DNA of 64,000 nucleotides from Isoetes taiwanensis. Lineage: Eukaryota; Streptophyta; Lycopodiopsida; Isoetales; Isoetaceae. The notes below the pieces were generated by a model. It saw nothing but the letters and a program-made list of their open reading frames with translations. It was not told where the DNA came from and did not search any database. Each line of letters starts with the position of its first letter. Position 1 is the first letter of the stretch. The stretch lies in NCBI GenBank assembly GCA_021234155.1, contig JAJEKV010000075.1, positions 3,567,720-3,631,719 of the forward strand, written 5' to 3'. The position numbers were made by a program, and so were the translations under genes. Of the stretch, positions 3,801 through 46,899 are shown piece by piece.

Positions 3801-4149
3801 TGAGCCAGGCCGGCCCAAATCCGAGGATGGACGGTCGAGATGAAATGCCCCAATATAAGGGTCGTAGATTAAAAGCCTCCCAAACTGTACGCTAGATTCG
3901 TGTCATCACCGCGACCGCCCATCTCGTGATGGACGACTTCTACCAACATTTGAGACACTCATATAACATAGTTACTTAGGTAAACATCATGCCTCACTGG
4001 GCCCATCCTATAGATGAACGGTCGATCAATCTCTACCAACATGTTGGTAGAGCTCATAATTGTATATTGATGAGTGATAAATGCATATAAGAGATAAGAA
4101 AAATATAAGAGATAAGAGATATGCAAGGGTAAGTAAATTACTATCATAA

Positions 4150-4325: not shown

Positions 4326-5205
4326 ATGTTGTATTAGTGTCATTTTGCAAAAGAGCAAAAGAATCATCAAATAACATTAATGCAAAATGAAATTGTGCAT
4401 AGGAATGTAAGATACCTAAGCCATGAGCTGCTCTTTGGAGGCAAATGCTTTATTTCAAACTTGTGATTAAGTGGAACTCATTTAGTGTAGAATGCATGAT
4501 AATTTGTATGCCCTCGAAATGATAATAGATTGTAGCATCATATGTATACCTCAGATTGTGTCATGCATAGTTATAGTTGATGTAGTAGCAACTGCTAAGA
4601 ATGATAGATACCTATAATGTATATGTAGTTAAAAGAAGGAATAAGTACGATTTAAAGGCCTATATATAAAGGAAGGTCGACGATGCAAGATGTATCAAGC
4701 ATAAGGACATTAATGTCTCTAATAGCATGAAATTCATTGAATCAACTGCCTTGAATGCAAGATTATGACGACTAGTTGTCTTTATAGAAAGGAGTATGGG
4801 CATAATGTAAATCATCGAGCAGGAAATGTTGCAGTGTCTTGAAGCCCTCGAGGTTTGGTAGTATAACAAACTTATTTGATGTTGTTAGAAGTATAAGGCT
4901 ATTTGTCTATTGAAGTGGAAGTGCAGAGTTGATGACCATGGAAACAATTTAGAAACTTTTGTAAACACCCAATCTAAATCATAAACGCAAGGGAGATATA
5001 AAGACATCAAAGCATTCAAATGAAAAGGAGGATGCTAAAGTGCATGATGGTTTGTTGTTAAAGATTTTGCATGGAGCATTTCCTCGCTAAAGTACAAATT
5101 AGAAGTTGTTCCATGTCGCTTATGCTGCCAAGCATATTGTAAAACAATTTATGAGCATGGTAGTACATTGGTGTTTTTGTTTTTACGTCAAAGATGTTAT
5201 TACTA

Positions 5206-9739: not shown

Positions 9740-12345
9740 CCCCCACCTCCACGCCACCCTAATGATAAACCTAACACTATGGGTATATCGATGATATACC
9801 AATGGTATAAAATACTCTGCATATTTATACCAATGGTATGTGATTAAAACCCTATTTATGAATTCCATGGTATGTGGTTCCAAGCCATGGTTTGTGTCCA
9901 TAAAACCACTAGTCTGGCCCGTGATAAACCACTAGTCTCAAGGTCCGTATTAAAACCATTGGGGTGGGACAACGGAATTGTGTATAAATACTAAGGTATC
10001 AATACTTGTTGTATTTATACCCATGTTATGTGTGATTCCAAGCCATACTCATACATTGTCCGTGATAAACCACAAGTTTCAGTCTCAGATAAACCACTAG
10101 TCCAGGTCCAGATAAACCACTAGTCCTGTCCGTGATAAACCATAATGGGGTAGATATTGGAATTGAGAGTAAATACTCAAGGTATCAATACTTGCTGCTG
10201 TATTTTATACCCATGTTATGTGATTCCAAGCCATACTCATACATTGGGTCCGTGATAAACCACTAACCAGGTCCGTGATAAACCACTAATCATGGTCCGC
10301 ATTAAACCATAATGGGTAGACATTGAATTGAGTATAAATAATTAAGGTATCAATACTTGTTGTATTTATACCCATGGTATTATCTAAAGCCATACTCATA
10401 CATTGTCCGATAAAACCACTAGTCCGTGGTCCAGATAAACCACTAGTCCAGGTCCGCATAAACCAATGGGTAGACATTGAATTGAGTATAAATACTCAAG
10501 GTATCAATACTTGTTGTATTTATGCCCAAGGTATGTGATTCCAAGCCATACTCATATCGCTAGTCCGTAGATAAACCACAAGTTTGTGTCCGATAAACCA
10601 CTAGTCCGGTAGTCCAGATAAACCAATGGGTAGATATTGAATTGAGTATAACACTCAAGGTATCAATACTCTGGTGGCATAGTATGATCTCCAAGCCATA
10701 CTCATACATTGTCCGTGATAAAACCACTAGTCCAGGTCCGTGACAAACCAATGGGTAGACATTGACTTTATATAACACCAAGGTATCAATATTTGTTGTA
10801 TTTATACCTGCTGCATGTGATTCCACCATCCCTCACATTGTCCGTATTAAACCAATTAGTTTGTGTCCGTATAAACCACAAGTTTGTGTCCGTGATAAAC
10901 CACTAGTCCGTGGTCCAGACAAACCAATGGGTACACATTGAACTGAGTATAACACCATGTATCAATACTTGCTGTATTTATACCCATGGTATGTGATTCC
11001 AAGCCATACCATATCGCTATCCGATAAACCACAAGCTTCCAGGTCCGTGATAAACCACTAGTCCAGGTCCGTGATAAACCAATGGGGCATACATTGAATT
11101 GAGTATAAATACTCAAGGTATCAATACTTGTTGTATTTATACCTATGCATGGAATGATTCCAAGCCGCATCACGTTGTCCGATAAACCACAAGTTTTGTG
11201 TCCAGATAAACCACTAGTCTCAGGTCCGTATAAACCAATGGGTAGATATTGAATTGAGTATAAATGATTCAAGGTATCAATGCTTGGTGGTTTTATACCC
11301 ATGGCATGTGACCTGCCTACACCATACATTGGTCCGATAAACCACTAGCTTCAGTCCAGATAGCACTAGTCCTGCGGTCCAGATAAACCACTGGGTCTCA
11401 GGTCCGCACACAAACCAATGGGTAGACATTGGAATTGAGCATAAATACCAAGGTATCATCATTCTGTTGTATTTATACCCAAGGCATGCGGATTCTATGC
11501 CATCCCCTCACATTACTGGGTCCGTGATAAACCACTACTTTGTGTCCAGATAAACCACTAGTCCGTCCGCACAAAACCAATGGGGTACACATTGGAATTG
11601 AATATAAATACCACTCAGATCAATACTTGTTGCATTTATACCTACGGTAATGTGATTCCAAGCCATACTCATACGCTGTCCATAAACCACAAGTTTGTGT
11701 CCGTGATAAAACCATTACGTTCAGGTCCGTGATAAACCAATGGGGTACACACATTGAATTGGAGTATAAATACTCAAGGTATCAATACTTGTTGTATTTA
11801 TACCATGGTATGTGATTCCAAGCCATACTCACGCTTGTCCGTGATAAACCACTAGTCCAGGTCCAGATAGTCCACTAGTCTCAGGTCCGCATAAACCAAT
11901 GGGGTATTACATTGAATTGAGTATAAATACTCAAGGTATCAATACTTGTTGTATTTATACCCATGGTATGTGATTCCAAGCCATACTATACGTTACCCAT
12001 GGTATGTGATTCTAAGCCCCCACTTTTGTGTCCAGATAAAACCACTAGTTTGTGTCCGATAAACCACTAGTCTCAGGTCCAGATAAACCATTGGGGTGGA
12101 TAATAATGGAATTGTGTATAAAATACTAAGGGTGTAAATACTTGCGTATTTTATACCCATGGTATTAAAATTCCAAGCCATACCTCTACATTGTCCGTGA
12201 TAAACCACTAGTTTGTGTCCGAGCAAACCCAATGGGGTAGACATTGAGTTGGGTATAATACTCAAGCGATAAATACTTCTGTGTATTTATACCCATGGTA
12301 CGCCATTCCATATACTTTATACATTGTCTAGGATAAACCAAGACT
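9740..12345. repeat. Satellite array, about 160 bp units with nested 20 bp subrepeats
   Basis: About 16 diverged units are recognisable by the landmark GGTATGTGATTCCAAGCCAT, recurring at roughly 150-180 bp intervals (for example near 10,025, 10,214, 10,530, 10,990, 11,650, 11,806 and 11,965). Each unit has a fixed part of about 95 bp (AATGGGTAGACATTGAATTG, ACTCAAGGTATCAATACTTG, TTGTATTTATACCCATGG) followed by one to four copies of a 20-24 bp subrepeat of the form GTCCGTGATAAACCACTAGT. The variable subrepeat number explains the variable unit length. The subrepeat differs at one spot (CCGTGATAAACC, CCAGATAAACC, CCGATAAACC, CCGCATAAACC), which may be sequencing error. Apparent open frames through the array are by-products. 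Confidence 0.93.
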
Positions 12346-16989: not shown

Positions 16990-17360
16990 CATAACTGCTG
17001 CCAAGGCAGCCATAGGTGGACGCTAATTTATTTTCAAAATCGCCATATTTGAGGTTTTCTGCGCTAAAGCCATTTTCGTGGCTCTTTAATCGCCATATTT
17101 TCGCGCTTCGGACCGCATATATTCGAGGCTCGTGTTAAAAGCCGATTTTCGTGTTTTAATCGCCATTTCGAGGTTTTCCAGCTTCCACGCTTCCATAAGG
17201 TATTTAATATGTGCCCATTTGTATTCTAGATTTTGGCCTAGATTTTGTATTCTTTAATATGTGCCCAGATTTTGTATTTCTAGATTTTGTATTCTAAATT
17301 TTGTATTCCAGATTTTGTCTCGATATGCCTAGATTTGTCTTGATATGCCTTTTGTTGTAT
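16990..17360. repeat. Short tandem subterminal repeats of the outer element
   Basis: From 17,035 to 17,180 the string AATCGCCATATTTGAGGTTTT and close variants recur about four times. From 17,195 to 17,360 a unit like AGATTTTGTATTCT recurs about seven times. A further direct repeat of about 49 bp (GGTTCTAGAGTTTTTTCATT) lies at 17,690-17,765. Positioned just inside the left end, they resemble subterminal repeats that transposases bind; that function is inferred. Confidence 0.7.
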
Positions 17361-17499
17361 TCTAAAACCATGGGCCTTTGAACCATTGCCATTATAACCA
17401 TGGTCTCGGTAAGTTGAACATATTCTCGACTTCCCTTATACACCCTACCTTCATATGTTGTTTATGATAATTAGATTTACTTTTACTAACAAATACATT

Positions 17500-20400
17500 C
17501 CCGATATTCCCCAGTGTGCATTACAAACGGGCAACAAAGCGACCGGATGGGGCGTAGATTCATTTGCAGAGAGCCGCCCGACAGTGGATGGACGAGAGTG
17601 GGCTAATTACGCCAACCGCGACACCGCAGGTTGGGTACATCACTTTTGCAGCACCGGCCGCACTCCCCATTAGATAGCCAGATACCAGGTTCTAGAGTTT
17701 TTTCATTTGTACTTGCGCAGTTGTATTTGGTAGGTTCTAGAGTTTTTTCATTTGTACTTGTATGTTTGACAGGAATATCGAGGCATATGGTCGACTGTCG
17801 CCGCCCTGGGTCTCTAACAAGCCTCGCGGCACACATAGTTTGGGCACTTATCGGTACCGACGCACCCGGGTCCCCCCATACAGCGTACGCGTGAATCGGG
17901 TTCTGGGGCGTGTTCGATTTAGGGATCGCGCTATTGGGCACCATAATGCATATCACAGAGAGATATGTGGTGGCTATCGAGGGGAACGCGGGTCGCCCTG
18001 TGAATGACCCTTCGCAGCCCATCCCTCACGATGAGGAGAGGGAGCGCCAATGACATCGAACGGGCAGGATGCAAATGGAAAGCAAATGCGCAAGAGCGTA
18101 ATGTAATCCGCATGGCGACAAAGTGCAGACAGCGCGCAGCTTTTAACGCAGGACGACCGTCTCAACGCGCGGCTCCATGCCCGCATTTGCTAGGCCTGCA
18201 GAAGATACCCTCGGCCGCGTGATGAGGCATTGGACAGTCGCCCGCAAGATCGCCAGGCATAATGGAGGGTGATGCACCCTCTATACCTCGCAGCAGGAGG
18301 CCCTGCACGCTTATGATCATCGTGACGCAACAACGAGGGAGGATCTCGTGATGAACGCGGTACCAAGATGAGTGGATGAGCCACGGATAACGCAGAGCCC
18401 CCTCCCACCCTACACCCGAGGAGATAATGGAGTATGCAACAAGGCCGGGTGCGTGAAGAGGAGCAAAAGAAGGGGGGCATTATCGCATGAGAGCGTTAAC
18501 CGCGGCAGAGCGTACCACCGTGGTAGAGCATCCATCGGTCGACGCTAAATACTCAACCCCACACTATGGAGAGAAAGCAAATAATCCACAGCTATAGCTT
18601 TGAGACACAGATTTGCATTTCGGGCATGTCGCCCCACAAAGATAAAGACACTGACCGACAGGCCATTCTTACATCACGCCGCATTTACGCATGTGTCCCG
18701 AGCAGCCTATTGAGGACATACCGCACGCACTGCTTCATTCACACGCCACCTCCATCAAGATGTGATAGAGCCTCGGTTTTCGAGGCCCATCTTTGATGAG
18801 TCAGCGAGAGCCATCAAGCACATACGCCGAGGCCAGAGGAGAGGGTTCGCTCCCTAGCTTGGCATCATTGGTTTCACCTTTTCCTCCTACCGGCAGATGC
18901 ACATGACCGATACCGGCAGGCATAGGGATGTGGCTGAGGGTTCTTTCTCAGACCGGGATGGAGTTTGGGGCAAGGCACGCTTTATGCCTACTATTTGTCG
19001 CGCAGCCTATGGGTGGGTTTGAGGTGGCAGAGAGGCACGATGCACGGTAAACATTGTGGCTACATCCTGTTTGATGTTGCCTCTATTTCCTCGGGAGGAG
19101 GTTTATATTTTTGGGGACTCGCATAATGCATCGGATATGCCGCCGAGGTATGGCGGTAGCGCTGATAGCAGCACACCACCCCACGCACCCACAGATCTTG
19201 TGGAAGGCTCCTGGCCGAACGCATGTCATTGTTGGCCGCTTCTTTGCGGCGCTTGGATGCAGGAGCGCAGCGTAAGGCAATCGTTGAATCGCTGAAGAGT
19301 GGGAGGCGATCACGTCGTGGTAATTATCGAGCACGCGGTCCTAGCACGATTTCATTCATGTTTGTCAACCTTTTCCCCACCATGTAGCACGATGTGCAAA
19401 GGTCGATGCATCGGGCCTAACCGCATGATAGATCCACATTTGCAATGGTGGACCTCGCCGGGTTCGAAGATCACCAGACATGGCTCGACCTCGCCCCCCA
19501 CGCATTCGTGATACTTCATGGGAGAGCTTGAAGCATCATTTGGCCCATCCAATATGGTGCGGGCATAGTCCCTATCCCCTCTCTGTCTCCACAGTACTCA
19601 TGCAAAGGTGAGCTGCTGCGGGACACTGCACGCTCGGTGCATATTGCGCACTTTTTGAGTACGGAGAGACTCCCGTGGCCCAGCGCTTCGAGGGCTTTTT
19701 GGTGCATGGATTCCCCACCGCGTGGTGGGCCATACCGACTCAAATACGAAAAAACCCGCTGACGCATAACCGCGAGTTCTTCATGGCCGACTTCCTTTAC
19801 TTTTAGTTGTCTTCAATCGCGCAACAAGTCCTTACCGCGGTTGGGGCCGTGGTATTGCGGTACCGGGGTCGCATTTACACACTCATGCCCCGACCACCGA
19901 CGCCGCTTTGTAAATCGGTTGAGCCGCTGGGCGCCAAATCCCCAAAGACAAAACCAAAGATTGGTCTTAGGTGCCCATGTCTGCCTAAACATCCCGATGT
20001 CATGAAGGCTTTCCTATGGCCGAGACGCACATAGACTTGCGTGTTGACACTACCCTCCCCACCACCTCATTAATAATTTACATATGCCCCAAGATGACAT
20101 CCAAAGCCTTTCACCTTGCAGTGCACCAACATGCATATCGACGAGGGATGTGGCACGGCCAGCGAAACTTCTTTACACTCATTGCTTTGTTCCACGCCGC
20201 CGGTGGCATATTGGTTCAACTACCAAATAATGAGGCGCGCCATAGTGTACTTTTTTACTATGCAATAGAAACATTGTCATTGATTTAAATGCCATGTACC
20301 ATCCACATCATCACCGAAAGGATCGGGCAAATCGAGGCGACGCCGTGGAGCCTCCTCCCACGCGGTGGGCTGGCTACAAGCCAAAGGTATGAGGCTACAC

Positions 20401-21330
20401 GACGCGTGCTTGAAAAGTTACGCTAATCTGCGTTCTCACCGAAGTTGCATAGCCCTCGATTGGGGACGCTTTCTGCATAGATCACTAACGCCCTTAGCGA
20501 CGCCGCACCTCCGCAAGCAATGGAGCCGTGTCTTCTCGCCTATGTGTTCTTGGTTCATTACCTCCGCCCGCCAAGATTGCATTTTCACATTGCCCGCAAC
20601 CCACCGACTAACCACCAATCTCAACGGTTCGCCCACTACAAAAATGGGGCGCCGATGTGGCCGAGCTCCGCCCCGGCCCCGATATAGCACTTCAAGAGTT
20701 AGGGACGGTACCTAAAGAGAAACATATCTCCTCGCTATGAGGTGCTTGCACACCGGACATCAGTAGGGAAAGGTGCAATAGTGCTGCATCATCAAAACCG
20801 TGATAAGCGGACCCCATCATCATCCGCCTCGATGCGATGGACGCCTTCAACGGCCTCGCCGCCCACTACCATGATTGTGTTTGCATCTCCCTCAAACCGC
20901 TGCAGTTAGATCTTGTGCACTCAGACGCCGCTTGGCGATAGGATCGCTGGGTTGTACCTACCAAGTCACCGCAAAGGAAGGGAACGCGGATTAGAATGGA
21001 AGAGCATTCTTAACTATGTGCTTTGCTAGAGACATACCTAGGCTCCAACACTCCGCATTCCAAGGCCAAAATTGTGCCTCCTGGGATCATCACCATTTGG
21101 ATATCCTACTAGCCAACAAATTAGAGTGTACATCCAACAAGTTAACCTTGCAACCCAAAGTTTGCACCTTCAACACCCTCCAATGGGCCTCCACGAAGTT
21201 GGTAGTGTCCATGTATCCATGGGGCCACAACCTCCGTGTCGCCGCCATTTCCTTCCTTCCTTCCACAAACGGTTGTGGGCAAGATAGCTGGGATGCCAGT
21301 GTGTATTCTCGCACGCCAACTACGAAACGA
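17500..21330 (-). pseudogene. MULE-like transposase, C-terminal part (broken)
   Basis: The clearest part is 21,090-21,314, which reads GYMDTTNFVEAHWRVLKVQT on the minus strand. This resembles the conserved segment after the catalytic domain of MULE-type transposases (TTN, E, then WR.LK). Reading in the same direction, it continues the other transposase piece that stops at about 29,745 on the far side of the nested element. Downstream (20,690 to about 17,500) the sequence stays GC-rich and coding-like but I could not find a clear SWIM zinc finger, and all frames are broken. Some patches, such as GETPVAQRFEGFLVHGFPTA at about 19,650-19,710, read better on the plus strand, so a second gene of unknown type between 17,500 and 20,400 is possible. 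Confidence 0.55.
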
Positions 21331-21420
21331 TATTTCTAATCAAGAGCTCGACAAAGACACTTACTCAAGATCTCGCATCTACCATAGAACAAAGTTTAAA
21401 TGATAAACGGGCAAATCATT

Positions 21421-21464
21421 GAAACGAGAGCAAAAGGAATATTCTCAAAGATTCCCTTTTTTTT
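21421..21464 (+). repeat. Left terminal inverted repeat of the inner element
   Basis: AAACGAGAGC, then a variable spacer, then CAAAGATTCCCTTTTTTTTA. The inner half matches the inverted right end very well; the outer half matches only AAACG(A/G)GAG. The left copy seems to have lost the symmetrical hairpin seen at the right end. Confidence 0.6.
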
Positions 21465-21729
21465 ACAAAAAAGGGGTAAAATGAGGTTAAAAAAAAAAAG
21501 ATGCATGAAATTCTATTTTGACCCCGAAATGACTAATTTTTTTTTGCAAATCTAAGGAATTGACTTTTTAAAGTGTCACTTTTCTTAGCAAAAAAGAATG
21601 TTCTTAAAGTATGTTTTAAGAGAGAAACTCTAATTTCGTGAGGATAAAATATTTAACAAAAAAATTGAAGTAAGTCCAGAATTGAAACCTAGTATTCTCA
21701 AAATTTGAAGATAGAATCTTCATATTCAC

Positions 21730-24700
21730 ATCAAAATTCTATGCCTTTTTCTAAGACTCCGCTTATGTGCAAAAGTGTGAGGAGGATGAGAGAGGGATCC
21801 GTGACGCCCTCATGTTCATTTATGCCATCGTCATCACCTTCACTTCTTTCATTTGCCACCGAGGAAGTGCTTGAGTTATCTTCCTCATCACTATCAACGC
21901 ATCGGTGAAGCATTGTCACCACCTTCTTCATCATCTTCTTCATAATTACAAGCTTTTTAAGCAAATTGATAGTCTTCAAAGAGACGATTGTCGATTTCAA
22001 TTTAAAATCATAGCACAATATAGTCACGCTATTAAGGTTCAAATTTCGTCCCTACAACCCACCTTCTTGACTTTCTCCCTTTTCCTTGGCTTCTCATTTC
22101 TAACTCATATCTACCTTCAAAAGCATTTTTCGAGCGTGTTGCAAAGCCAATGAATCTTGAGTTTAGTGACTAAGCCTTCCTCCTTGACTGCGGTCAAGCA
22201 CTTTTTGCTATCCGTAATCCGGCCGACCTTTGTCATCCTCCTCCTCGAAAGAGCAATTAGCATACCTTTGGTAATTTCGCGATATTACCTTTTTGGGGCT
22301 CATTCCCCGCCTTGGTCCGAGGTACATGACTCGGGCCCCTCCTCGCCTTCTACTGCAGGTGCAAATGTAGCACCGCTTGGACCTTCTTGGTGCCGGGGTT
22401 GATGGAAGGTGTTAAGCCATTGAAATGGTTCTTGCAACCGCCTTAGAGCTATATTTTGTACAACAATTTTCTGCTCGAGAAAGAAATTACTCCACCACAT
22501 CCCATCTTCTTCTAAGAAGTACTTAAAGCCCGAGGAAATTCCATTTTCAATGGCTTTTAAGGATGACTCGGGGGTACTTTTCTTCCGCTTGGACTCCTTA
22601 GGATTTTTGAGAGGAAGTTGCTCAAAGACGCGCTCTATGAAGGAAGTGTCCGAATATATTTAAGGAAGCTGCATCCTCCGGGCGGACTCCAAATTTTTAG
22701 TTGTGGTATACTTCTTCCCTCAGAAGAAGCTTTGGCCATCCTTCAAGTAGAACTTGATATGATGTTGAAAGGTGAGATCATTCAACTTGTTCACAAATTT
22801 TGTTCTCTCGCTTGAACGTTGAGAGAAAACAAACTCTCTCAAATCAAAGCCAGCCTCTTTAAGAAGATCGACCACCGAGTAGGAGTGTAAGAATCTTCAA
22901 TAATTAACTAAAGAAGGAAGACAGAAAGCCTTCTTCCTTCTAAGGCGCATTTAAAAATCACAACATTTGGTCAACTGATCATGAGTGTGGCCTACAAGTA
23001 AGAAACCGAGCTTCACTTTTCTAAAGATCCCTAGCTCCACTAACATGGCACAAGACGCAAAAGAGTGTTTGATTCTTGTTCTCCCTTGTAGTATTGTCAA
23101 GCTGCAGATAAAGCACCGGTGGTAATTGCTCTTGCTCGCACAGACCTTGTTAAGAATTGTAATTGTGAGGTTCGGGTCACCATGCAAGTTTGATACGCCA
23201 AAAATACTTTGCACCTTAGACTTCCTTTGAAGACCATAGCTCCTACAAGGTGGACTTTAACAAAACATTCCTCCGCACATCTTTAGGAATGTTCAAGAAA
23301 TGTGGTAGAGTTGTTTTTTTTTTGGTCCATTCCATCAATCACAAATGTATATGTATTGCAAAGGACGCTCAAGAGCTTTTTTTTTTATGCTTGGCAAGCT
23401 TTCTTCTCTCTCTCGCTTGTTGTTCACGATGTCTTGCAAGGTTCTCATGTACAATATCTCAGAGAAGAAATCAAGTCAAAGCATTTTCTCCAAAACAAGT
23501 GAGAGATTGAGAACATGAACTTACTTCTTTCGACCTCTCGCCTTTTGCAGCTTCGTTGACTTTAATTCTCGCACACCTCGAAAGCAAAATGTGACATTCT
23601 ATGTTTTCTAGGAATTTTCACAAGACCGAATTCACTTTTCCACAAATCGGGTGAAGTGTGAGTAAGAGATGTGCCAAGCCGAAAGTGCAAGTCTCTTTGT
23701 ACTCATTAAAAACATCTTTTTGGTGATGTTATCATTTAAATGATACATGTTGTCTGTTAGGTAGCTTCTCACATGTTTCTCTAAAAATATTTCTCCATCC
23801 ATGACACAAAGAAGAAGGGCATGCATGGTTACAACTCTTCTTGGTCCACAATGATCATCGATTGTGGATTTTTGTCCAGCCTTTTTGTGTATTCTAGACA
23901 TTCTTGTGGACCCTAAACGGTGGACAACCATAAAACATTTCTCGCAAACTTTTGACGGTTAATGTAGTGCAAGAAGGTGTTGCGGTCCGGTCTTTACATG
24001 ATAAGCTAAGTAGGCATTCGATTCCGCCAATGTCATGGAACTCAGAAGTTGTCTCTAATCGCCAGAATTTAGCCATGTTAAATTGTTGATGCAACCCAAT
24101 GAGCAAAGATTTAGTTCTCAAAAGTCTCCTCATTTTCTGCTCATCCATAAGATTTCTTCTTCTTACAGAGGAGCAAGCCCTCAAACCAAAATCCACCTTG
24201 AATTTCTTTGAAGATTGGTCGAGAACATGTAATCTCTTTGTTCCTCGCTGGTGTCCATCTTCTTCGATGAAACTTCTACTGGGGTGACTTCCTCCGTTCC
24301 GAGTGGTGTGCTTGTAGAGGAAAAACAATTCACGTGAAGTTGTTCCCTAATAGGCTGGGTACAAAGTGTTAAAGGGGTGGTGATGGCCCATAAGAGGTTG
24401 TGGCATCACCGTTTTTGTACCATCTTGAAAAGGAGTTCTTGCAAACATCTCCTTTAGAGCGGACCGAATTCTCGCAGAATCCATGTGTCACAACCATTGT
24501 TGTGTGAAGAGGAGTGCATGCCGAGCTTCGCCTTCATTTGTAGTGAAGTCCCGGTGAGAGAAATTGTAGTGAATCTCACAAATTTCTTCAGGTTTTCTGG
24601 TTCCTTGTATGTTTGCACGGCGAGGCTTAAACTACAAAAGGGGGGGGGTAGCTTGTTCTTGAGCACCCTTTGTTGTGGAGCTTCAGAGGTCCCGGATGGA

Positions 24701-25005
24701 ACAAAGGGTGGTGGCAACCTCGCCCGAACCGGTGGTGATTCTTTGGAAGGAGATGCCGCAGGCCGCCTACGTGACTTGGTGACGGCTGGAAGGGTGGTGG
24801 AAGTCCGTTACGTATCCGGACTCCTGACTTTTTCAAGAAGCAAGAACGATGAAGTAGAGGTAGGAGCTCTGAGAAAACCGGCCTTCGTAAGAAACGACGT
24901 TGGTCCCGAAAGTGTGTCCTCTAAACTAGACGAGCTTGAGACAAGGAAAGGTGGTGGAAGTTTGTTGACGGCGCGGTTTGTCATCTTAAGAACCGCAAAA
25001 CAAAG
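21730..25005 (-). pseudogene. DUF7869-like putative transposase (broken)
   Basis: Frames on the minus strand alternate through several frameshifts. The key block at 22,951-23,110 reads LQLDNTTRENKN in one frame, then SCAMLVELGIFRKVKLGFLL and VGHTHDQ in the next. This set (hydrophobic-QLDN, ENKN, GIF, FL.VGHTHDQ/E) is what I recall from the DUF7869 type of eukaryotic mobile-element proteins, which looks like an RNase H fold carrying acidic catalytic residues. Upstream (about 24,450-24,990) is a proline-rich N-terminal region with repeated LPPPF. Downstream (21,731-22,042) is an acidic, serine-rich tail. It diverges from the ParB-methyltransferase gene across about 1.2 kb. It is presumably the mobility protein of the element. 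Family assignment is by motif only. Confidence 0.6.
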
Positions 25006-25369
25006 CAGAGTTTAGATAATGTTTCTCATCACAGAGCTTTTCTTATTCCGTAATACAAGCCCGCCTACTACAAGTAGAAGTTCCCGCAACAATTAAGCCG
25101 AAAGGCAAACTAAAAGCTATTCCCCAATACACTAGAGCGTAAAAGAAGGCCAAACGTATTCCACTTCACATAGAAAACGAAAGCAAGACGGAATGGACAC
25201 CTTTAAAAGGAAATTTTGGCGCCTTCGGGCCATGTGATTCCGGGGCCTCGAAATGAAGTCAGCCACAAATACCTTCGATTATAATATATTCGTGAGTCAG
25301 ATTCGATACTCATAGAGAAAACATGGAGAGGTGAGTAAGAAAGTACAAGGTACAATCATTTGTGTGTTT

Positions 25370-25590
25370 GCTTATTCCCAATACACTTACCCCTTTCTCT
25401 CGGCGCGGTGTATTCCCCAATACACTTTCGCTTTCGAGGGGAGGGCGCACGCGTATTCCTAATACACTTTACGCCTCGAGGGAAGGCGACGTGTATTCGA
25501 ATACACTTACGCCTTTTGAGGGTAAGTGTATTCGAATACACTTTCGCCTTCCAAAGGCTTAAAGTGTATTCCTAATACACTTTCGTGTTC
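25370..25590. repeat. Array of GTATTC palindromes between the two divergent genes
   Basis: Five or six palindromes of the type AGTGTATTCCTAATACACTT are spaced 35-50 bp apart. Centres vary (GTATTCGAATAC, GTATTCCTAATAC, GTATTCCCCAATAC), and TTCGCCTT or ACGCCT spacers recur between them. Isolated members also lie at 25,032 and 25,107. Their position in the divergent promoter region suggests protein binding or hairpin function. Nothing similar was noticed outside the inner element. Confidence 0.85.
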
Positions 25591-26189
25591 TTATGTTTTG
25601 TAAGGTTATTTTTCCGTGATTTTGTAGTAACTTTTAGGTGTTTTTTCCGCTTCTAAAACTTGTTTAGACCTGCTTTTTGTCAAGATTGCAAAGTGTTGTT
25701 TTGGCATTTTTGTCCTCTTTTTGCCCTTTGTTTTTTCCTTTTCGCAAGACATTTTGTATTCTCGAATAGTTTTTTGCCACGCTTTCTAACAAGATCGTGT
25801 TTTACACACAATTTGCAATGCATAAGAAGGCAAAGAAACAACAACAGAGGACCGTTAAAATCCCAACGAAACCGCACCCACCCACAGAAGGGTTGAGGAG
25901 ACATCTCATACCGCTATCTACTTAAAAACTTTCAAACTCAATGGTTTTTTACAAGGGGTACTTCGAAAGTACAAAGACACTTACTTTCCTACATGTCCGG
26001 TTTGAGGCCGGAGCAAAAGGTAACGATGAGAGGGAATTTGTCCCGCATGGGCACCATCCGTGCCGCGGAGTGAAGTAGCCGGGGAGTCCTGGCCACCGAG
26101 GGAGACCGCCTTTTCGCACATCCCAAGGCTTTATTCATGTTGATGAATCCTATTTTAGAGTGGTGAAAGTAAATCCTCATCCTCTATAT

Positions 26190-29100
26190 AAGTATGTTTC
26201 ACTACTCAAGAAGAGGTCGCCTGCCCATCATCAACTACGCTCGGCAAATAACGAGCTTAAGACTTCCCCTACAAATGAAGTCATCACAAGGGGAAGAGGA
26301 TGACCAACCGAGCCCGAAAGCAAAGGCATCATCACAACTGGGAGTCCATCACAACCCGCCGAAAGGCCACCGCCACCACCACCAAAGAAGCGCCAAGGGA
26401 AACAGCTTGCCGCTAAAGAGCCTAAAAAAGCGTGACGGCTTTAATTGCGCAGAGGATATTTCCGAGGAACCTAAGAAGAAGAAGGGGAAGGGTAAAGCAC
26501 CCGTGTTGCTATTAAGGAAAAAAAAAAGTTGACAAAACAAATTTAAAAGATGGAAGAGATTAACCCGCACAAGTTTGTGCAAGGTGTCATTTATTTGCCG
26601 GGCCACTTCAATGAAGCTTCCAATCAAAAAAATGAAGCCGGTGAAAGGCCACTTCAGTGTTCGCAAAATTTATGCCGATCACTTAAGGAACCCGAAAGAC
26701 GTAATAAGGAGCAATCCAAATGCTCATGTGGCCCCAATAGTTGTCCTTGTTGACAGGAAGAGTGCAAAACCCCCAGACTATGACAGAGAAAACGCAGAGA
26801 CCTACACTCACTACGCCTTGGGAGGCAATCACAGCCTTTAAGGCAAGAAGGCAACTTTATAAAGAGAAGAAGAACCCGAGGTACCTCTCCGCCCCCTCCT
26901 CAAGGCCGCTTCATCGGGGTCTTACCGATGAAGAAGAAGCAAAATCGCTGCCAACACCCACAATGCCGACAACTAATATAAACTAAAGATGAGCTTCACG
27001 ACAATATCCGCTTCATGCATTGTGGAGTACGTAATTTTCAAGGAAAAGTACGGGTGAGGACCTCAAGAAGCCGCTTTTTTTCCTTGGAGCTTAAGGAGGC
27101 GTAGCCATTGAATGTCGCCGAAATATGACGAGGCCAACAAAAGGCGCTTCTCATTGGCCACGCATAACCGGTTCCAGCTTAGCTTTTAGAGATGGCAAGG
27201 TAAGCACAAAATGTATTCCGAATAGCAAATCAACTATTTAACGTGAATCGCCTTGAACAGATTTGGGAACCTGTGACCGATATTTACAATGTTCGAAATG
27301 GGGAGTTAAAGAGCAAGGGAAAGGAGACAAATTAAGAAAAAACCCTCGACGCACTCCAAAAAAAAAAATGACCATTACCGCCTCAAGGAAATGCAGTGGC
27401 TTCTCCGACACGAGCTTCTCGAGCAAAGCCTTCTCCAAAAGTTGTTGATAAGGAGTTTAGCCTAGAAGAAATGTCAAAGGAATTGCACAAGTAAGTTCTC
27501 CGGACACAAACATTAGTTATTGCATGTTAGATTCCCAAAAACATCTACAGAAGGTGTATTCCGTATCACACATGCCTTCCTTTACACGGGCAATGTGTAT
27601 TCCGGAATACACATTGCTTGTCTCTAGAAAGGCATTAGGTATTCCTAATACACATTGCCTGTGGAAGGAAGGCATGTGTATTCCTAATACACATTGCTCC
27701 TCCAATGTTGGCCTCGTATTTCCTGAATACGCATGCTCCCTTTAGAGAAGCAATCAGATTCCTGAATACACATTGCTTTTCTAGAGACAAGCAATGTGTT
27801 TGTCCCAGAGCGTAACTATTTTCTCGCATATTGTTTCGAGGTAGCATCACAAAGTTAACCGGTTTGTATTCCGTATACAAATAGCTTGACTTTTATTTGT
27901 TTTTCTTTTTACGCTGCCTTCATTCTTTCGCTTAAACTCATTGTTTCCTTAACGCCTTGCGCCCAAAAGAACGCCATAACATGTCAAACATGTTTGATGG
28001 AGCAAATAAACGCCGACACATGGGAAAGGTGCAAGGAACTCTACCCAATTGCCACATCCGACGAAGACATTTGTGCAATATTCACCAAATTTTGAGGGTC
28101 GGGTAATTACTCTTAGAATTCCTTTTCTCGCAGACAAACGATCTCTTGACAGCTTGTTGTTTTGTTTTTCTTTAGAGCAAAAAGAAAAATAAAGACCTAC
28201 CCGAGGGCTTTATGAATTTGGTTAGAACAAAGACGAAGAGAGAGGTCGTTAGTAAAGAAGAACTGTGGAGCCGTAACCATCCGACTACGAGAGATTCTCG
28301 CATGTTTGATCAAAACAATTTATATTCAATCATTCATGGTGATTGCACGAACCTTGTCTTTAATCGGTTAAGCCACGTGACTTTACTTTGGTTATTGCTG
28401 ATCTTCCCTATGGGTTTAAGCTTAAAGACAAAGCAGATACGACGACCAGCCCCTTCAAATTTTCGTGAGTTTAATGCTTTCATTGAAGGAATCAAGCAGA
28501 TCTCAACGCCAAACGCTCCATTCGAAAGCATGCACCGCTTGGTGGAATCAGCTTCAAAAATCACTTTGGTTCTCCGCCAGTGTGATATGAAAACCTTGTT
28601 CAGAAGTCTTATTCCGTATCACAATTACTTTTCTTTTAATTACGTGAGTGTGTATTCCTAATAGTATTTCCGCTTCGGTTTTCAAGTGTTTTCTTTGTTT
28701 TTGCTAACATCACTTTAAATGCTTCACTAGGTACAAAACTAACATCAACTACCATGGTGGAGGACCAAGGTTGCTCAGCAAGGTAGAGTACCTTCATGTA
28801 GCTTATTGGAGTTTTGATGGGAAGAGGACCATGGAACACTTTAACACCGCCACCAAAAACTTTTCAAACGCCCTAGAGTTTCCAGCAGCCTTACGTGAAT
28901 TGGCAGGACCCAAGTGCACAAGGCAGATTGTGAAATCACTACCGAAAACCACAAAGCTCATCAACCATCTCCGACATGTTCTCGGCCCGTGAGATTGGGT
29001 GCTTGATGCTTTCTTCCGGTTCGGGTACTACTATCGCATGTGCACTTAAGAAGGGCCGCGAACCGTAGCCGTGGATATTGATAAGGAGGTCAGCATTTTG

Positions 29101-29398
29101 TGAAGATGAGACCGGGTGCCTTTACCTACTTTACCGTGATGAAAATCAAGAGTTAGGGGCCAAGTCTTCATCCGATTATGCTAAACTAACGCCCTCGTGA
29201 GATACAAAATTTCCATTCTCCAAAATCACTAGACGATGAGGCAACCTTTGCAGAGCTTAAAGAAGTAGCTTTAGCTACCATTCCGAGGACAAGGAGGATA
29301 AAAACTCAAGTCTCCAAAGAAAGGAGCAGATAGAAATGTATGACGAGATGGCGAGAGCAAAGAAAAAGAATGAAGAGGACTATGATGTAGATCTTTGA
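26190..29398 (+). pseudogene. ParB-like domain joined to beta-class DNA methyltransferase (broken)
   Basis: After a lysine-rich N-terminus, 26,627-26,990 reads a ParB/Srx-type domain: GHFSVRKIYADHL, VAPIVVLVDRKS, HYALGGNHSL and NTHNADN, the usual order of a substrate or nucleotide-binding ParB N-terminal fold. A middle exon (27,240-27,490: NRLEQIWEPVTDIYNVRNGE) ends at GTAAGT, and an intron carries a palindrome array. A further exon (27,970-28,095) includes NADTWERCKELYP. The methyltransferase follows: YSIIHGDCTN, then VIADLPYGFKLKD (motif IV, DPPY-like) at about 28,392-28,430, an intron at 28,645-28,730, then DWVLDA and, one frame over, SGSGTTIACALKKGR (AdoMet motif I) at about 28,994-29,050. 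The order DPPY then FxGxG is that of beta-class N4-cytosine/N6-adenine enzymes. The C-terminus is charged and ends in EEDYDVDL. Several frameshifts and stops break it; some could be read errors. Confidence 0.72.
27553..27880. repeat. Intronic array of GTATTC palindromes
   Basis: Seven or so members of the form GCAATGTGTATTCC/GGAATACACATTGC occur about 40-50 bp apart between two methyltransferase exons. The longest, near 27,588-27,615, is a near-perfect 28 bp palindrome. The core is the same as in the 25,370-25,590 array but the flanking arm is CAATGTG rather than AAGTGT. Single copies also lie at 27,208, 28,610 and 28,650. Confidence 0.85.
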
Positions 29399-29684
29399 CT
29401 CATCGCATATAAAAAGTATCATTATTTATTAAATGAATCTTCAATATTGATGTACAACAATTTATTAAAAACATAATACTTTTTTTTCCTTTCTATTCCG
29501 TGCTTTTTTTTGTAATGCTTTCAGCCTCTTCAAGTCTATGCCTAAATTTCGCTATTTTATGATTTCTATTTCATAAGTACAAAGTTTTCGCTCTAATGAT
29601 GGGCCAAAATGGCATGAAAAAAAATTGCGAACCTCCATAAATTCTCAACAACTATCAAAAAAGGCTTATTTTAGAAACATGGTA

Positions 29685-29733
29685 TTTTTTTAAAGGGAAT
29701 CTTTGAAACGGGAGTGATGCAACACTCCCGTTT
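29685..29733 (-). repeat. Right terminal inverted repeat and hairpin of the inner element
   Basis: TAAAGGGAATCTTTG is the inverse of the left-end CAAAGATTCCCTTT. It is followed by AACGGGAGTGATGCAACACT and CCCGTT, a hairpin with a stem of about 11 bp at 29,707-29,732 that marks the outer end. The sequence then returns to the MULE-like transposase frame. Confidence 0.65.
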
Positions 29734-29744
29734 AATTTGCAATC

Positions 29745-31765
29745 GTGTTATAGGCATTGTAGAAGTGATTTTCCAAGTGCTCATACCGCCCGTGCCTGCT
29801 CCAACATGAGATTAGATAGCCTTTGCCGCACATCTTGGCGATGAGCTGGTCTTGTATCCTCTGCATGAGGTTGTCACGCCATGCTCGCTTGCAATGGAAC
29901 CAACAAGATATGACACAACCGGGACCGCACGGGCATTACATCTAGGAAAACGCAAATAGTGACAAGCAAAGTTCTTTACCGCCGCCGCCGGCTCGCTGAA
30001 ACAAGATGGGTCGCTGGCAACCGCTTTCTATGGCCACTCTCCCTCTCCGCCCATGTCAATGGTGATGGACCTTGGCCTTACATGCCCCATCCGCTCAAAC
30101 ACCGCTGTAAGCGCTTTTCGTGATTTTCTTTGTCCGCCGCGACCCATTCTTATGTGTACACAAAGATGTAGAAGACCGATATCCAACCCCGCGATGCAAT
30201 CGAACCACGGGCAAGCAGAGAGCGTATCCGCCACATGTTGGTGCCAATGTCGAAGTCGAGGGCCCACCCCGAAGCTTGTTTCATCAGACGCCGCCCCACG
30301 ATATACCGTCATCTTGCGTAATCCAGGGATCCATGGGCGCTGCTCCGATCCGCAGCCGCGGAGACGCTGAATGGTCGGTGGTAGAGGACCTTTTCCCGCA
30401 TGTGCCCAAATTCTCTATGTTCTCCTCAAGGTCGTCCCACGGGCCATCGCGCCACCGCCAAAACATAGTCACGCTCGGTGCCAAGGCAAGTGAGTGCTGC
30501 ATTACCATAAGCTTCCACTAGACATGACATTCGCCACCAAACATTCGGATACTTGTTGCGTAGACGCTACACATCCTCCCCGCTCATGTCAAACCGATAT
30601 GTGACGCTGCCGGGACCGCCGCGGGTCTCCTCCCCCGAGCATGGGACCCATCGCCGCCATGTCCCATTCGTAAATTTTGTGCCGCCGTTCACGCTTTCAT
30701 TAACCGCACAAAATTTCTATCGATTAGGGTGAACTCAGAGACCATACATTGGGCGCCAGATGGATCGTGCACTTAATGCGCCGTCGGGCTAAGAAATATC
30801 CAGTCCGCCACTGCCCTCCGCAGATGACCATTCGGCCGCATCAGGCGGTTTATACGCGGCGGTACCACGCCTCGCGGACTCGACCGCCCGCTGGTTGTGG
30901 GCTCATACCGATTCCTTCACCCAAGTGGCAAAGTAAAATCGCCCACCTCATTGCCGAATCACACCCCCTGGCCCCGAGCGCGCTGTGGATGTGCACAAGA
31001 CGGACACGGCCTCGCGACTCGCGACTCTCCCACTCGATGTCGGCCCGGCCGACAGCAGGTTAGTCTCATGTTGAGGGAAGTCATTATCCTTCATGTACAT
31101 GCGAACCTTTGCAACCGCACACACGCAGTAATCGGTCATGTATTCCCAAATGATCCTGTACTTCGCTATGCCCGCTCTCCCACCGGATCTTATTTCTTTT
31201 TGGGTTCTCCACAAGTGTCGCTATTGGCAATGTGGCATCAAGGCCACTAGATTGTTCCAATCCTCTACCCAAGGCACACACTTATGTGGATGCGATCCCA
31301 CCCTATGCAAATAGGAAACATGACCGACGACTCCCACGTGATAGCCCCTCACGGATTGCTCCCACCGCCCCTCATATCTATGCCACTTTCGGAAAGAACA
31401 TGCCCGTCCGTCTCTCGTGGAAGGGGAGGAAAATGGTCCGCGATCCCGATGTCGCGACTGACACGGGTCTACCTTCGCTGACTGAAGCAATCATAAGATC
31501 ATATGTTGCTTTCAAGAAATACCCATGCACACGAACTCCTGCCCGCTCTTTGCTTGCCACCGCATGACGGACGATACATCCGAACCACCTCCCCGCATTG
31601 CATTGAACCACCGGGCCACGAGGTGCACTTGTGGCAACCGGACGGTGTAGAGCAATCCAGATCCGAATGGTCGATGAATCCTCCCAATAGTCGCTATTGT
31701 CGCCATCCGAAAGCTCGCTCAAGGAACCCTCATCCTCATAATCAATCCGACATTCTAACAAAGCC
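29745..31765 (-). pseudogene. MULE-like transposase, N-terminal and catalytic part (broken)
   Basis: The minus-strand frame begins near 31,761 with an acidic start (DYEDEGSLSELSDGDNSDYW). It then runs through several frames to the catalytic region: KALTAVFERMGHVRPRSITID at about 30,050-30,130 (a candidate catalytic Asp), followed by ISCWFHCKRAWRDNL at about 29,870-29,915. The pattern P..I.tD, then C.fH.kRAW, is the one seen in MULE-type transposases between the second Asp and the helix that follows. The frame ends at the border of the nested element (HLENHFYNAYNT) and resumes at 21,330. Frameshifts and stops are frequent. The family assignment rests on these few motifs. Confidence 0.55.
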
Positions 31766-31859
31766 TATCAAACAAGCCGCACTATGCCGGGAGAACTTCG
31801 AACTAAGGCGGATCGCTTTGCCGCCTTTTCACGCATATGGTAGCCCCGGCTTGTTTTAT

Positions 31860-33975
31860 ATTGAATGCAAAATCGCTTTTGCTGATTTTCAAATTTTTAT
31901 TTTTTCCCCTCCTACTTTCTACAAATACGACAGACCTTATCTTCAAAAATCGCTTAAGCGATTTCAGATTTTTTTTGGGCGGTACCGATTGTCGACAAAG
32001 CCGACGAAAAATCGCTTTTGCCGATTTTCAAATTTTTTTTTTTCCTCTTGCTTTCTAAGACCGATATGCTTTTATAATGAAATTGAGTGAGACCACTTAT
32101 GTGCACCGACCACTAAATTACATAGATGTCAAAATTTTTGGTGCTACTCTCAAATGTTTCAGATTCTTTCACATGAAGAAAATACATAGGTCTCACAAGA
32201 CATGGCTAATTCAAACAAACATACTACATAATAGACAACGATAATAGAAAACACCAAAGCTTCACTCTATGCCCACTTCAAAGCCTCGATGAGATCCTCC
32301 ATATCGAACTCATCAATATGTCTTCGACCGATGATCCACCCAATCATCCAAATTCTTGATAGAATGACCACCGGCCGACGATGAGCTTGTTTACCATAGC
32401 CCCGCATTGTCTTTTTTGCTTCTTGTAAAGCTTCCTAAACAGAGGTCTAACGTATTGTGCATCCAAACCTCCTCCATCTTCAAAGAAATTTTTCGCCTTT
32501 GCCCCGTAAATAAAGGCGTTTCAAAGATATGAGGCACTCCTCCGCCCCCCTATCGAAGTTGTTCCTCGTCGCCATTCCTTATGAACCCATCGCCTTTGGA
32601 GGAGCTTTTGTGAATTGGGCGCTTAACTTCTCTCGCTCGGATCCCGCCTATCTCGCTTCACCTCCACCAAACCGATTCAAGATGGGCTAAGATTGGGGCC
32701 CACTAATATGAGACCGCATTTCTGTGATGGTGTGTCCCCGTCATGCGCCTTTGTTTCGCCATTTTGAGTGTTCTCGAGAAGAATGTAAGAGAGCACGAGG
32801 AGCAAAACCCTATAATCTTACCCCTATCAAACAAGCCGCAAAAACGAGGAGCAAAAACCCTATATTCTTACCCTATCGCTAATCGCTTAAGCACTCCTTT
32901 CACCTGAACACGATGCTTATTTTATATTGAATTGAAAATCGCCGAGCGATTTTCAATTTTTTTTGAAGGTGATTGTTGACATGACACTTGAAAATCGCTT
33001 TTTTATTTTCAATTTTTTTTTTTTTTTTCTTCGTTTTTTTTCCTCTTACTTTCTAAGAATGTATATGCTTCCATAGTCAAATTGAGTGTACTACTTTTTT
33101 TCCCATTCATAAAAGCAAATTACACATTGTCTTTTTGTCCATCCCCGTGACGCGACAATTTAACGCAAACCATTTGCATCATTATCCGCACATTTAACAT
33201 CGCTTCATCTCTCGCTTGGCTTGTTGAGCCATTCTACCACGCTCACGTTACCTTTAACGCCTGACGCTAAAGCAGCAGGACAAGCTCCCTTTCACTCATT
33301 CTTGCGACGATGGTGAAAGGAGCAGCAGGCAGTGGGGGGGTTCTTGCCCTCGAGGAGGAGCGCGGGATTGCCGGATGATGTCCCCTGAGGAGGAGGAGGA
33401 GGAGGAGGAGGAGGCTGACATCGGTAGAAGGGACATATTGTGCCCACACCCGCCTTTAACCGGCCTGGACCATTTCAACAAGATAGGCAGGGAGATTAGA
33501 GGCGCCAGCTTTGACGATATGGCAAGTCGCTTTTATATAGAATAGAAAATCGCTAAGCGATTTTCAAATTTTTTTTATTTTCCCGGCGTTATTGTGGCCT
33601 GACGCCGAAAATCGCTTTGCGATTTTCAAATTGTTTTTCTCTTACTTTCCTTTCTACGCTACTTTTTTGCTTTTTACTTTGGCTACCGACAGTCCGGTAA
33701 AATCGCTTTAAGCGATTTCGATTTTTTTTTTTTCACTGGGCAGCGATCGCCGACGGATCGATCACGACGGACGCGATAAAATAAAAATCGCTTTAAGCGA
33801 TTTTCGATTTTATTTAAAACCACCGAGGTGAGCCGAAGCTTCCTAGAACGAAAACTAAAAATCGCTTTTTATTTTCACCTTTCCTTTTTGAAAATCGCTT
33901 TAAGCGATTTTTACCAGTCTCTAAAAATCGCTTTTTAGTTTATTTTCCTAAATCGCTTTTAGCGATTTTCGTCCA
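31860..33975. repeat. Dispersed AAAATCGC/GCGATTTT palindromes
   Basis: About thirteen copies of GAAAATCGCTTTAAGCGATT or shorter variants lie at irregular spacing (for example near 31,868, 31,945, 32,010, 32,935, 33,543, 33,608, 33,698, 33,785, 33,889 and 33,949). They become dense in the last 400 bp. Some have lost one arm (CGCTTTTTATTTTC). The region lies between the presumed transposase start and the outer right end of the MULE-like element, so these may be subterminal transposase-binding sites. A (GAG)n-like run lies at 33,388-33,417. No gene is seen here. Confidence 0.85.
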
Positions 33976-35825: not shown

Positions 35826-36176
35826 AGGGGGGTTCACCATATGTACACGTACGTGCCAACTGCGTGAACGTAAAGGGTTTTTTTAGTGGTTTAGTCGGCC
35901 AGTATACGATTGAGCTCTCACGCTTTTGGTGTTCTTTTCCCAGCTTTGAACGTTAAGGGAGGAAAGGCGGGAAGGAGGGATCCGTAGGTGGAAGATTAGG
36001 GCAGCTTCAACCATTTCTAAGACCAGGAGCTATCCGTTTGCCTATTTGTGGTTTATTTAGTGGGCTTCATTTTCTTCTTTGGCAACAAGAGAGCTCAAGA
36101 AAACGGGTGATGGATGGCTCTTTTGATCTCTTTTGTCTTTATGGATTCTTTGTTACAATTGTGCATGTGTATGCAG

Positions 36177-36866
36177 AATGTACAACAGAAAAAATTGATA
36201 TCCTTGAAGTTGGGATCATCTCGCCATACTCTGGCCAAGTGAAAGCCATAGAAAGCCGTCTACAGGCTTTCAAGTTCAGTGTCTTGCAATTGGAGGTTAA
36301 GTCTATAGATGGATTCCAAGGGCGTGAAAAGGACGTCATATTAGTTTCGACTGTACGCTCTAATGGCTCGGGAAATATTGGATTTCTTAAAGATTATCGG
36401 AGATTAAACGTTGCAATAACTCGTGCCAGGTTTGAGACATTTTCTATTTGCATCCATAAGTATATCTGATTGATAGGGTTTCCATCGCAGGAGCTGTCTA
36501 TATATTGTAGGGCATGCAAGCACTTTAAGTGCAAGAGAATGCATCTGGAAAGAATTGATAGATGATGCAAAACGAAGGGATTTCTTTATGAATTTTGGAC
36601 GAAATGAGGAAGTATGTAAACTGGTAAAAAGAATAAAGATAGAACTCAATCAACTTGCGGATCTGCTAAATCCTTCTTCTATACTGTTCAATGACACCAC
36701 TTGGAAGGTACTTAGCATTTCTTTCTCTTTTTGACATGTAGAATAGATGGTAATTCTATGCTAAGTTTTGCAGGTTCTATTCAGCAAGGAGTTCATAGCA
36801 AGTTTTATTGGGATTAAATCTGTACATGTTAAGCAGAACACAGGAGGGGCACTCTGTTTCTTCGAG
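36177..36866 (+). pseudogene. C-terminal fragment of a SEN1/MAA3-like RNA/DNA helicase
   Basis: Three exons with good GT-AG borders are visible: 36,177-36,429, 36,491-36,707 and 36,772-36,866. The first holds the last helicase motifs of superfamily 1[39 protein letters not shown] and [12 protein letters not shown] (motifs Va and VI). The second continues LYIVGHASTLSARECIWKEL and LADLLNPSSILFNDTTWK, matching the tail of the plant SEN1/MAGATAMA3-like family. The ATPase motifs I and II are missing, so the fragment could not work as a helicase. A direct repeat (ACACAGGAGGGGCACTCTGT at about 36,839 and 36,888) follows the last exon. Its plus-strand neighbours are pieces of other genes. Confidence 0.82.
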
Positions 36867-46063: not shown

Positions 46064-46899
46064 TCTAGAATGGGACTCGCAAGAAACCAACAAAGCGCCC
46101 GACTACCAGAGAACTTCCTTACAAACTAGGATCAAGGACGAGGTCACAGGACGAGGCCAAAGGCCAGTAAAGGATAGCAAGAAAGATACGCCAAATTGGC
46201 TAAACCAGGCAGGAAGAAGCCCCTCCCCTGCCTGGAAACAATTCAAAGCAATCAAAAGATTAAAGAACATGCCCTTATAAGAAAATCATTCTTGCACTAA
46301 ACTGAAACTACCCCCTACAACCAGCCTAAAATTTTAGAAAAGGAAGGACCTACTTGGAATTCTAAAAAAAGAAGGAGGTATAATGCATAGCATAGCCTTT
46401 TAGGACCATTGCATGATTACAAAAGAGTTGGGAAGGTTCTTGGGGTTAGGTTGGGTTGTCTTCATGGGACGTAGCTTAAAAAAAGCCCTTTTTTAATTAC
46501 TCCTCATCAATACCCATCATTCCAGAAGTTAGACCTATAGCTACAACATTGCAATACTATAACCATAGGACAACTATGACCATAGGACAACTTTGGTGTG
46601 CTGTGTGCTTCTCATGTTGATTCAATTTTTCACTAACAATAATTTTGAAATGTGATCATATGGTACATGAGCGACATCCATAGATCAGGCAGCAACATGC
46701 CTCTAGACTTAATTCACAGCCATAACCATGGATCAGGCAGCAACATGCCTATAGACTTAATTCACAGCCATATGAACATGCCTCTACTGTTGTTTCATGG
46801 TAATAAAAAACAAACTATGCTCTGCTTTTTGGACCTTGTACTTATAGTTGGCATTGGTAATTCAACTACACGACCATGACCATGACCATGACCATGGCA

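Follow-up and report, generated by a model that had tools for sequence, protein, structure and literature searches.

What kind of element would enclose, between one pair of inverted ends, a gene of the DUF7869 type and, divergent from it, a gene combining ParB and DNA methyltransferase motifs? The question is raised by a locus of Isoetes taiwanensis lying in a window of 64,000 nucleotides (assembly GCA_021234155.1, contig JAJEKV010000075.1, positions 3,567,720 to 3,631,719; unless preceded by a locus name, the coordinates below are those of this window), for which a preliminary description made from the sequence alone proposed an undescribed transposon at 21421..29733. We find there a single DNA transposon copy, and the reading towards which we lean, with somewhat better than even confidence, is that of a dead copy of a probably Sola-type element, whose DUF7869 protein would be the transposase and whose ParB-methyltransferase would bind palindrome arrays of the element and methylate it.

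The element and its ends

The copy extends from 21388 to 29749 (8362 bp) and belongs to a subfamily that we call A; its ends are those that genomic copies with differing flanks have in common. The genome searched comprises 1,658,258,908 bases in 1,110 contigs; the published assembly of this species is given, in the available excerpt of its report, as 1658.30 Mb in 204 scaffolds plus 909 further contigs (1,113), the product of nanopore and Illumina reads combined with optical maps (PMC8566536). A 401-base methyltransferase probe returned 1,005 first-look candidates, of which 40, window included, were scored and were 91-100% identical; 25 stretches were fetched by methyltransferase match, 20 of them copies with their flanks, the others being L048-L052. 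Similarity to the window begins at 21402-21404 in 18 of the 20 flanked copies and ends at 29749-29754 in 18 of 20. An inverted repeat arising by chance is ruled out, since the ends are common to many copies.

The terminal inverted repeats are 25 bp long and imperfect, the left and right family forms being identical at 22 of 25 positions. The left repeat (21388..21412, plus strand), whose main form is AACAAGATTGCGTATTAAACGGGAG with AACAAAGTTGCG as a variant among the copies, is damaged in the window copy; the right one (29725..29749, minus strand) reads AACACGATTGCAAATTAAACGGGAG inward. A subterminal pair, at 21445..21459 (plus strand) and 29692..29706 (minus strand), matches at 15 of 15 positions. 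This perfect 15-bp inverted repeat is real but subterminal: judged from the 20 copies, the true ends are 33 bp further left and 16 bp further right than was proposed, the earlier ends having fallen inside the element because the left terminus of this copy is damaged. Position 29733 is the end of a hairpin-capable sequence, AAACGGGAGTG-ATGCAA-CACTCCCGTTT (29706..29733), just inside the right terminus and present in the copies too.

The target-site duplication of the window copy is ATAG (21384..21387 on the left, 29750..29753 on the right). Matching 4 bp were found at 16 of 16 independent insertions, the window among them, and matching 5 bp at none; with the partners shuffled the mean was 0.95 and the maximum 6. 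The duplicated sequence varies with the insertion (AGAG, AAAT, CACT, TGAA, besides ATAG). This count started from the 20 flanked stretches and the window, from which L034 (same insertion as L028) and L030, L031, L033 and L037 (one end missing or rearranged) were dropped; for L043, whose end the script had misplaced, the duplication was assigned by eye.

Copies, coupling of the genes and decay

The DUF7869 region and the methyltransferase DNA occur together in all 25 fetched stretches, far above chance, and in 22 of them all four tested modules are present in the same layout; the exceptions are L036, which is without ParB, and L031 and L037, which overlap and represent one rearranged place. With the conserved termini and the target duplications, this co-occurrence bears out the proposal of one mobile element pairing two divergent genes. 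The case held in the preliminary description to refute it, namely genes residing in separate elements, did not occur in these 25 stretches, a sample chosen by methyltransferase match. When the 40 methyltransferase places were compared by eye with 150 DUF7869 places (the best of 9,902), two pairs lay within 10 kb, which says little on the coupling either way because the 150 places are mostly other copies. This is a very abundant, high-copy family of DNA transposons in I. taiwanensis, probably of the cut-and-paste kind.

Two more loci, L055 and L056, were picked for frame length among those with the longest DUF7869 frames. L056 is a complete related element of 7,978 bp, with the duplication AATT and terminal repeats identical at 24 of 25 positions; its DNA is about 77% identical in the transposase half, its ParB part lies within an open frame of 469 amino acids (aa), and its methyltransferase matches are spread over more than one frame.

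The copies fall into two subfamilies, six of the first 20 (L028, L034, L035, L038, L045 and L046) diverging from the window at 24585-26462, over which they have no match of 100 bases or more, except 185 bases in L038. Frameshifts and stops interrupt both genes of the window copy, whose motifs are scattered over many short frames; this copy is dead. Of its aligned sites, 6.2% deviate from the subfamily-A consensus, the highest value of the 10 sequences compared, and it shows 93 deletion and 125 insertion events, the ranges for the ten type-A sequences being 47-93 and 77-125 respectively. Part of these events may be residual nanopore-assembly error. A majority consensus built from 10 type-A and 6 type-B sequences continues to contain frameshifts, and the best ParB frame, that of L046, covers 184 of 190 residues.

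The DUF7869 gene

The broken gene of the minus strand extends over approximately 21755..24560, by comparison with the open frames of 857 aa in L056 and 987 aa in L055. Its DUF7869 region (about 22860..23350, minus strand) contains the three motifs of the preliminary description, QLDN and ENKN at 23149-23024 and VGHTHDQ within 23256-22954 of the translated minus strand. Pfam DUF7869 scores 98.8 bits for the pieces stitched from the window and 162.4 bits for a protein stitched from the consensus of 24 sequences, and is the only Pfam family over its cut-off in this gene. A genome search gave 9,902 first-look candidates, the best 150 of which all exceeded the cut-off, the frames around them staying open for as many as 987 codons; the 14 control genomes gave no match. 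The L055 and L056 sequences are 96.3% identical over 748 codons, with a nonsynonymous divergence (dN) of 0.016 and a synonymous one (dS) of 0.058. Going by sequence motifs alone, three aspartates of L055 are spaced D-80-D-39-D. The open-access literature searched does not contain DUF7869 by name. We consider that this protein is probably the transposase.

Some KDZ elements, which carry DNA methyltransferases, had been brought into the comparison by the preliminary description. KDZ elements make target duplications of 8 bp and Pfam includes KDZ models; no KDZ family is among the matches, DUF7869 standing alone over the cut-off in the transposase gene, and the duplication here is of 4 bp. A KDZ-type element, already disfavoured and in our view hardly credible, is rejected on both observations.

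The C-terminal part of the DUF7869 frames (ITKGMLIALPTEEDDKGRPFWIAKVLDT...LKIHWL, in the frames L055:1349-4309 and L056:6299-8869) resembles by eye a chromatin-reader fold, with no Pfam match.

The ParB-like/methyltransferase gene

The broken gene of the plus strand covers approximately 25890..29397, its introns being predicted, and encodes in this order an N-terminal part, which has no family match over cut-off, a ParB-like part and an amino-methyltransferase spread over at least two exons. The ParB-like domain (about 26640..27180) displays a GGNH box, HNADN and LKMSF, with ALGGNH within 26533-26838 and HNADN at 26932-26973 of the translated window. A first methyltransferase exon (28176..28579) carries IIHGDC and DLPYGF, the latter within 28364-28465; behind a putative intron (28580-28730), a second exon (28731..29100) carries, with one frame step, YKTNINYHGG and LDAFSGSGTT, the SGSGTT lying within 28934-29065. 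Thus all the motifs named at the outset for both genes are found in the translated window.

The methyltransferase is recognised by Pfam PF01555 (N6_N4_Mtase), with 35.1 bits for the stitched window pieces and 38.4 bits for the stitched consensus (curated cut-off 26.7). Its motif IV reads DLPY in the window and DIPY in L056, a form tied to N6-adenine rather than N4-cytosine; from this motif the enzyme, a beta-class amino-methyltransferase, is probably of the N6-adenine type. Among phages, tblastn gave weak matches to methyltransferases (73 records, best E 0.006), and for the ParB part 7 records at E around 2, or none; scans of viral contigs for relatives returned nothing useful (tblastn of L001-L019: one match of 24 residues, E 0.62).

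For the ParB part, 72,556 plasmids were searched. The subfamily-B consensus matched six plasmid records, every one annotated 'ParB family protein' (E 0.8-10); of the 13 matched by the L056 sequence (E 0.05-8), 10 carry that annotation, and the other three are an ATP-binding protein, a record without annotation and a place without a gene. These matches are not independent, because many come from the same few plasmid families. The alignment includes the GGN box and the H-x-A-[DE]-N motif together with the helix that comes after it. PHROG 723 (phrog_723, ParB-like) was matched at E 0.4.

The palindrome arrays

Two arrays of palindromes accompany the genes. The first lies between them (25370..25580), with the core GTGTATTCCGGAATACAC and a period of about 40 bp, and is decayed in the window; the second, of palindromes of the GTGTATTCCGGAATACAC type, lies behind the ParB part (27550..27880) in a stretch taken for an intron, through which the ParB frame of L056 continues. 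The intact palindrome is the 18-bp GTGTATTCCGGAATACAC. Allowing two half-site mismatches or fewer—a choice of units that biases the information content of the palindrome—24 of the 25 fetched stretches have 7 to 14 palindromes and the window copy has 7; L036, which has lost the region, has none. Sites without any half-site mismatch number six in L055 and four in L056, and those at L055:4736 and L056:5333 extend to a 32-bp palindrome, GGCCAAAGTGTATTCCGGAATACACTTTGGCC. At four mismatches or fewer, three window sites compare with a mean of 0.04 after shuffling.

Genome-wide, the exact GTGTATTCCGGAATACAC occurs at 2,585 places, counted whatever their surroundings, for a chance expectation of about 0.06 and none for the reversed control. 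Among 50 of these places, 22 spacings between neighbours are below 300 bp, 10 of them at 40-44 bp and 6 at 80-86 bp, corresponding to a single or a double step of some 42 bp, with four helix turns per step; four more spacings, of 2.0-2.65 kb, are like the distance between the two arrays. In the intergenic array the columns of the half-sites are better conserved than the spacers (0.915 against 0.64 in subfamily A, 0.98 against 0.85 in subfamily B), which supports a constraint on the half-sites in that array only. The palindromes are candidate binding sites for the ParB-like protein.

Selection on the two genes

The ratio of the proportions of nonsynonymous and synonymous differences (pN/pS) was taken between the element family and L056; proportions were used, and BioPython could not compute dS for three pairs. 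For ParB, pN/pS is 0.225 with the consensus (95% bootstrap 0.17-0.30) and 0.12 with the single copy L046 (0.08-0.17). The first methyltransferase exon, over 68 codons, gives 0.171 (0.12-0.25), and the DUF7869 core, over 108 codons, gives 0.078 (0.04-0.13), the strongest constraint among the genes tested. Synonymous differences are at or near saturation (pS 0.63-0.86). Judged by these ratios, the putative transposase, the ParB part and the methyltransferase are all under purifying selection between the subfamilies.

The same values bear on the possibility of a ParB-methyltransferase captured as neutral cargo, with palindromes that are minisatellites. In its favour are tandem repetition with a variable copy number, the broken state of all 26 sequences examined (25 fetched stretches and the window) and the absence of most of the accessory gene from L055. 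However, pN/pS of 0.12-0.23 for ParB and methyltransferase with saturated synonymous sites, and the same 18-bp palindrome in subfamilies whose remaining intergenic DNA hardly aligns, make this explanation, already disfavoured, very improbable. With pN/pS of 0.08-0.23 over the genes, the accessory protein has been kept for its function during the spread of the elements, not as mere cargo.

A possible mechanism and its weaknesses

The following scheme would account for these features. The DUF7869 protein would cut at the 25-bp terminal inverted repeats and, making a target cut staggered by 4 bp, insert the element. The second gene, divergent from the first, would provide a ParB-like DNA-binding part joined to a beta-class amino-methyltransferase; the former would bind both phased arrays of palindromes, the intergenic one and the one behind the ParB part, and the latter would mark the DNA of the element, the methylation keeping it expressed or competent for transposition in the face of host silencing. 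A more specific version, parS-like self-recognition, in which the protein would bind the 18-bp palindromes at their 42-bp phase and load onto the chromatin of the element, its adenine marks setting the copies apart from host DNA and helping them to resist silencing, is a tentative proposal that we would not defend strongly.

Several observations weigh against the scheme. Concerning the transposase, Pfam, PHROGs, NCBIfam and the PDB sequences provide no link between DUF7869 and a known transposase. None of the 25 fetched stretches nor the window has an uninterrupted DUF7869 frame; in all 26 the best single open-frame match covers at most about 170 of the 454 consensus residues. The missing relative would also suit another explanation, in which DUF7869 is not the transposase and the element, both its genes being accessory, is mobilised in trans by another family. 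Against this stand the presence of DUF7869 in every fetched stretch, its constraint, the strongest observed, the aspartates of L055 and the thousands of candidate places in the genome, so that we judge it improbable, and we retain DUF7869 as the probable transposase.

The identity of the ParB part is the second difficulty. It has no match in Pfam or in the PDB sequence searches, and NCBIfam TIGR03764 (ParB of PFGI-1-type elements) reaches E 0.0021, at 17.8 bits for a cut-off of 143.75; a single-sequence AlphaFold model of the window piece has a predicted confidence (pLDDT) of 52, too poor for a fold search. Of the protein names first proposed, DUF7869 and methyltransferase are thus upheld by Pfam, and ParB by remote matches that miss the curated cut-off, hence the name 'ParB-like', which seems fair on those matches.

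Thirdly, the palindromes do not behave uniformly. Of the 50 places, eleven lack another exact site within 3 kb; in the second array the half-sites are no better conserved than the spacers (0.902 against 0.951 in A, 0.977 for both in B); and variability within the site is highest at the palindrome centre, a pattern compatible with deletions at such centres or with deamination of a methylated CpG. Besides, of the two loci chosen for long frames, L056 has the ParB-methyltransferase, whereas L055 has kept in 9.8 kb, beside its open DUF7869 frame, the start of the accessory gene (N-terminal part) alone, nested insertion and loss being both possible. After this start, L055:5770-9800 is unrelated to the element and has several open frames without Pfam match.

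Some of these facts would also be at home if the palindromes were bound by the transposase or by a host transcription factor and drove a divergent promoter, while the ParB-like part recognised termini or chromatin and the methyltransferase modified the ends or excised intermediates. One array does lie between the divergent genes, its half-sites alone surpass their spacers, and L055 retains intergenic palindromes though the stretch seen there lacks the ParB-methyltransferase part; the second array, on the other hand, lies within the ParB-methyltransferase gene. We regard this alternative as possible but rather unlikely, and binding of the arrays by the ParB-like protein stays part of the reading that we favour.

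Relation to known systems

The type of gene pair is not unprecedented, contrary to what 'undescribed' implied. The available excerpts on Sola1-1_Ec32, of the brown alga Ectocarpus, describe a ParB-like and N4C/N6A-methyltransferase protein encoded opposite the transposase strand, suggest that the transposon encoding it is what it binds and modifies, and cite, as Iyer 2011 and Petroll 2025, ParB-methyltransferase proteins in transposons of green and red algae (PMC12477816). The Isoetes element is likewise a DNA transposon with such a gene, ParB-like by its remote matches, opposite the probable transposase, and its accessory protein has the architecture of the algal ones as far as the citing description goes; it differs by its size (8.4 kb against 21.5 kb), its host lineage and its palindrome arrays, which those excerpts do not mention for Sola1-1_Ec32. 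No ParB-methyltransferase transposon from a land plant was found among the matches listed in the open-access literature.

Sola elements are described, in the excerpts available, as making 4-bp target duplications (PMC10741241, PMC3627910) and as having a DDD transposase and terminal inverted repeats of 11-1124 bp (PMC10741241). The Isoetes element fits Sola in its duplications (4 bp at all 16 insertions and in L056), its 25-bp terminal repeats (22 of 25 identical in the family forms, 24 of 25 in L056) and its accessory gene. The 4-bp duplication suggests a Sola-type element; Sola shares such duplications with Academ and Chapaev. In Dictyostelium fasciculatum and Polysphondylium, Sola2 elements likewise combine, according to the excerpts, 4-bp duplications and short terminal repeats (12-13 bp, or imperfect 21 bp) with a captured accessory gene, unlike the Isoetes element in that this gene is Fanzor1 and the duplications are AT-rich (PMC3627910).

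The ParB-like part aligns with ParB of the PFGI-1 type (TIGR03764) and related plasmid proteins over some 80-125 residues, which take in its GGN box and H-x-A-[DE]-N motif as well as the subsequent helix; identity is about 25% only, and those proteins have a partition role, with no methyltransferase part named in the records consulted. The methyltransferase resembles the beta-class MboIIA and CcrM in its SGSGTT region, IIHGDC and D-x-PY motif, and departs from them in being fused, within a eukaryotic transposon, to a ParB-like part and in having DLPY/DIPY as motif IV.

Surroundings of the element

The regions on both sides of the transposon (17000-21000 and 29800-32000) are GC-rich, up to 55% against about 36-42% in most of the window, and are perhaps another inserted unit split by the transposon. 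Further away, a direct repeat of 5.2-5.3 kb with 85% identity (7-5197 and 46355-51640) probably represents two copies of another large repeat; 59363-60618 and 61353-62523, lying 2 kb apart, are duplicates of about 1.2 kb with 88% identity; and at 9865-12310 imperfect units that contain GATAAACCACTAGTCC make up a long tandem array. An open frame of 170 aa at 35957-36466 (AAA_12, 112.9 bits) is an unbroken gene piece in the same assembly.

Significance

The combination of genes is itself not new in kind; what is new here is the evidence of selection and the candidate target site. A bacterial-type DNA methyltransferase borne by a transposon, a situation cited for algae, is now found in a vascular plant at high copy number, and the 18-bp palindrome gives a concrete sequence on which the published idea of an element binding and marking itself could be tested.

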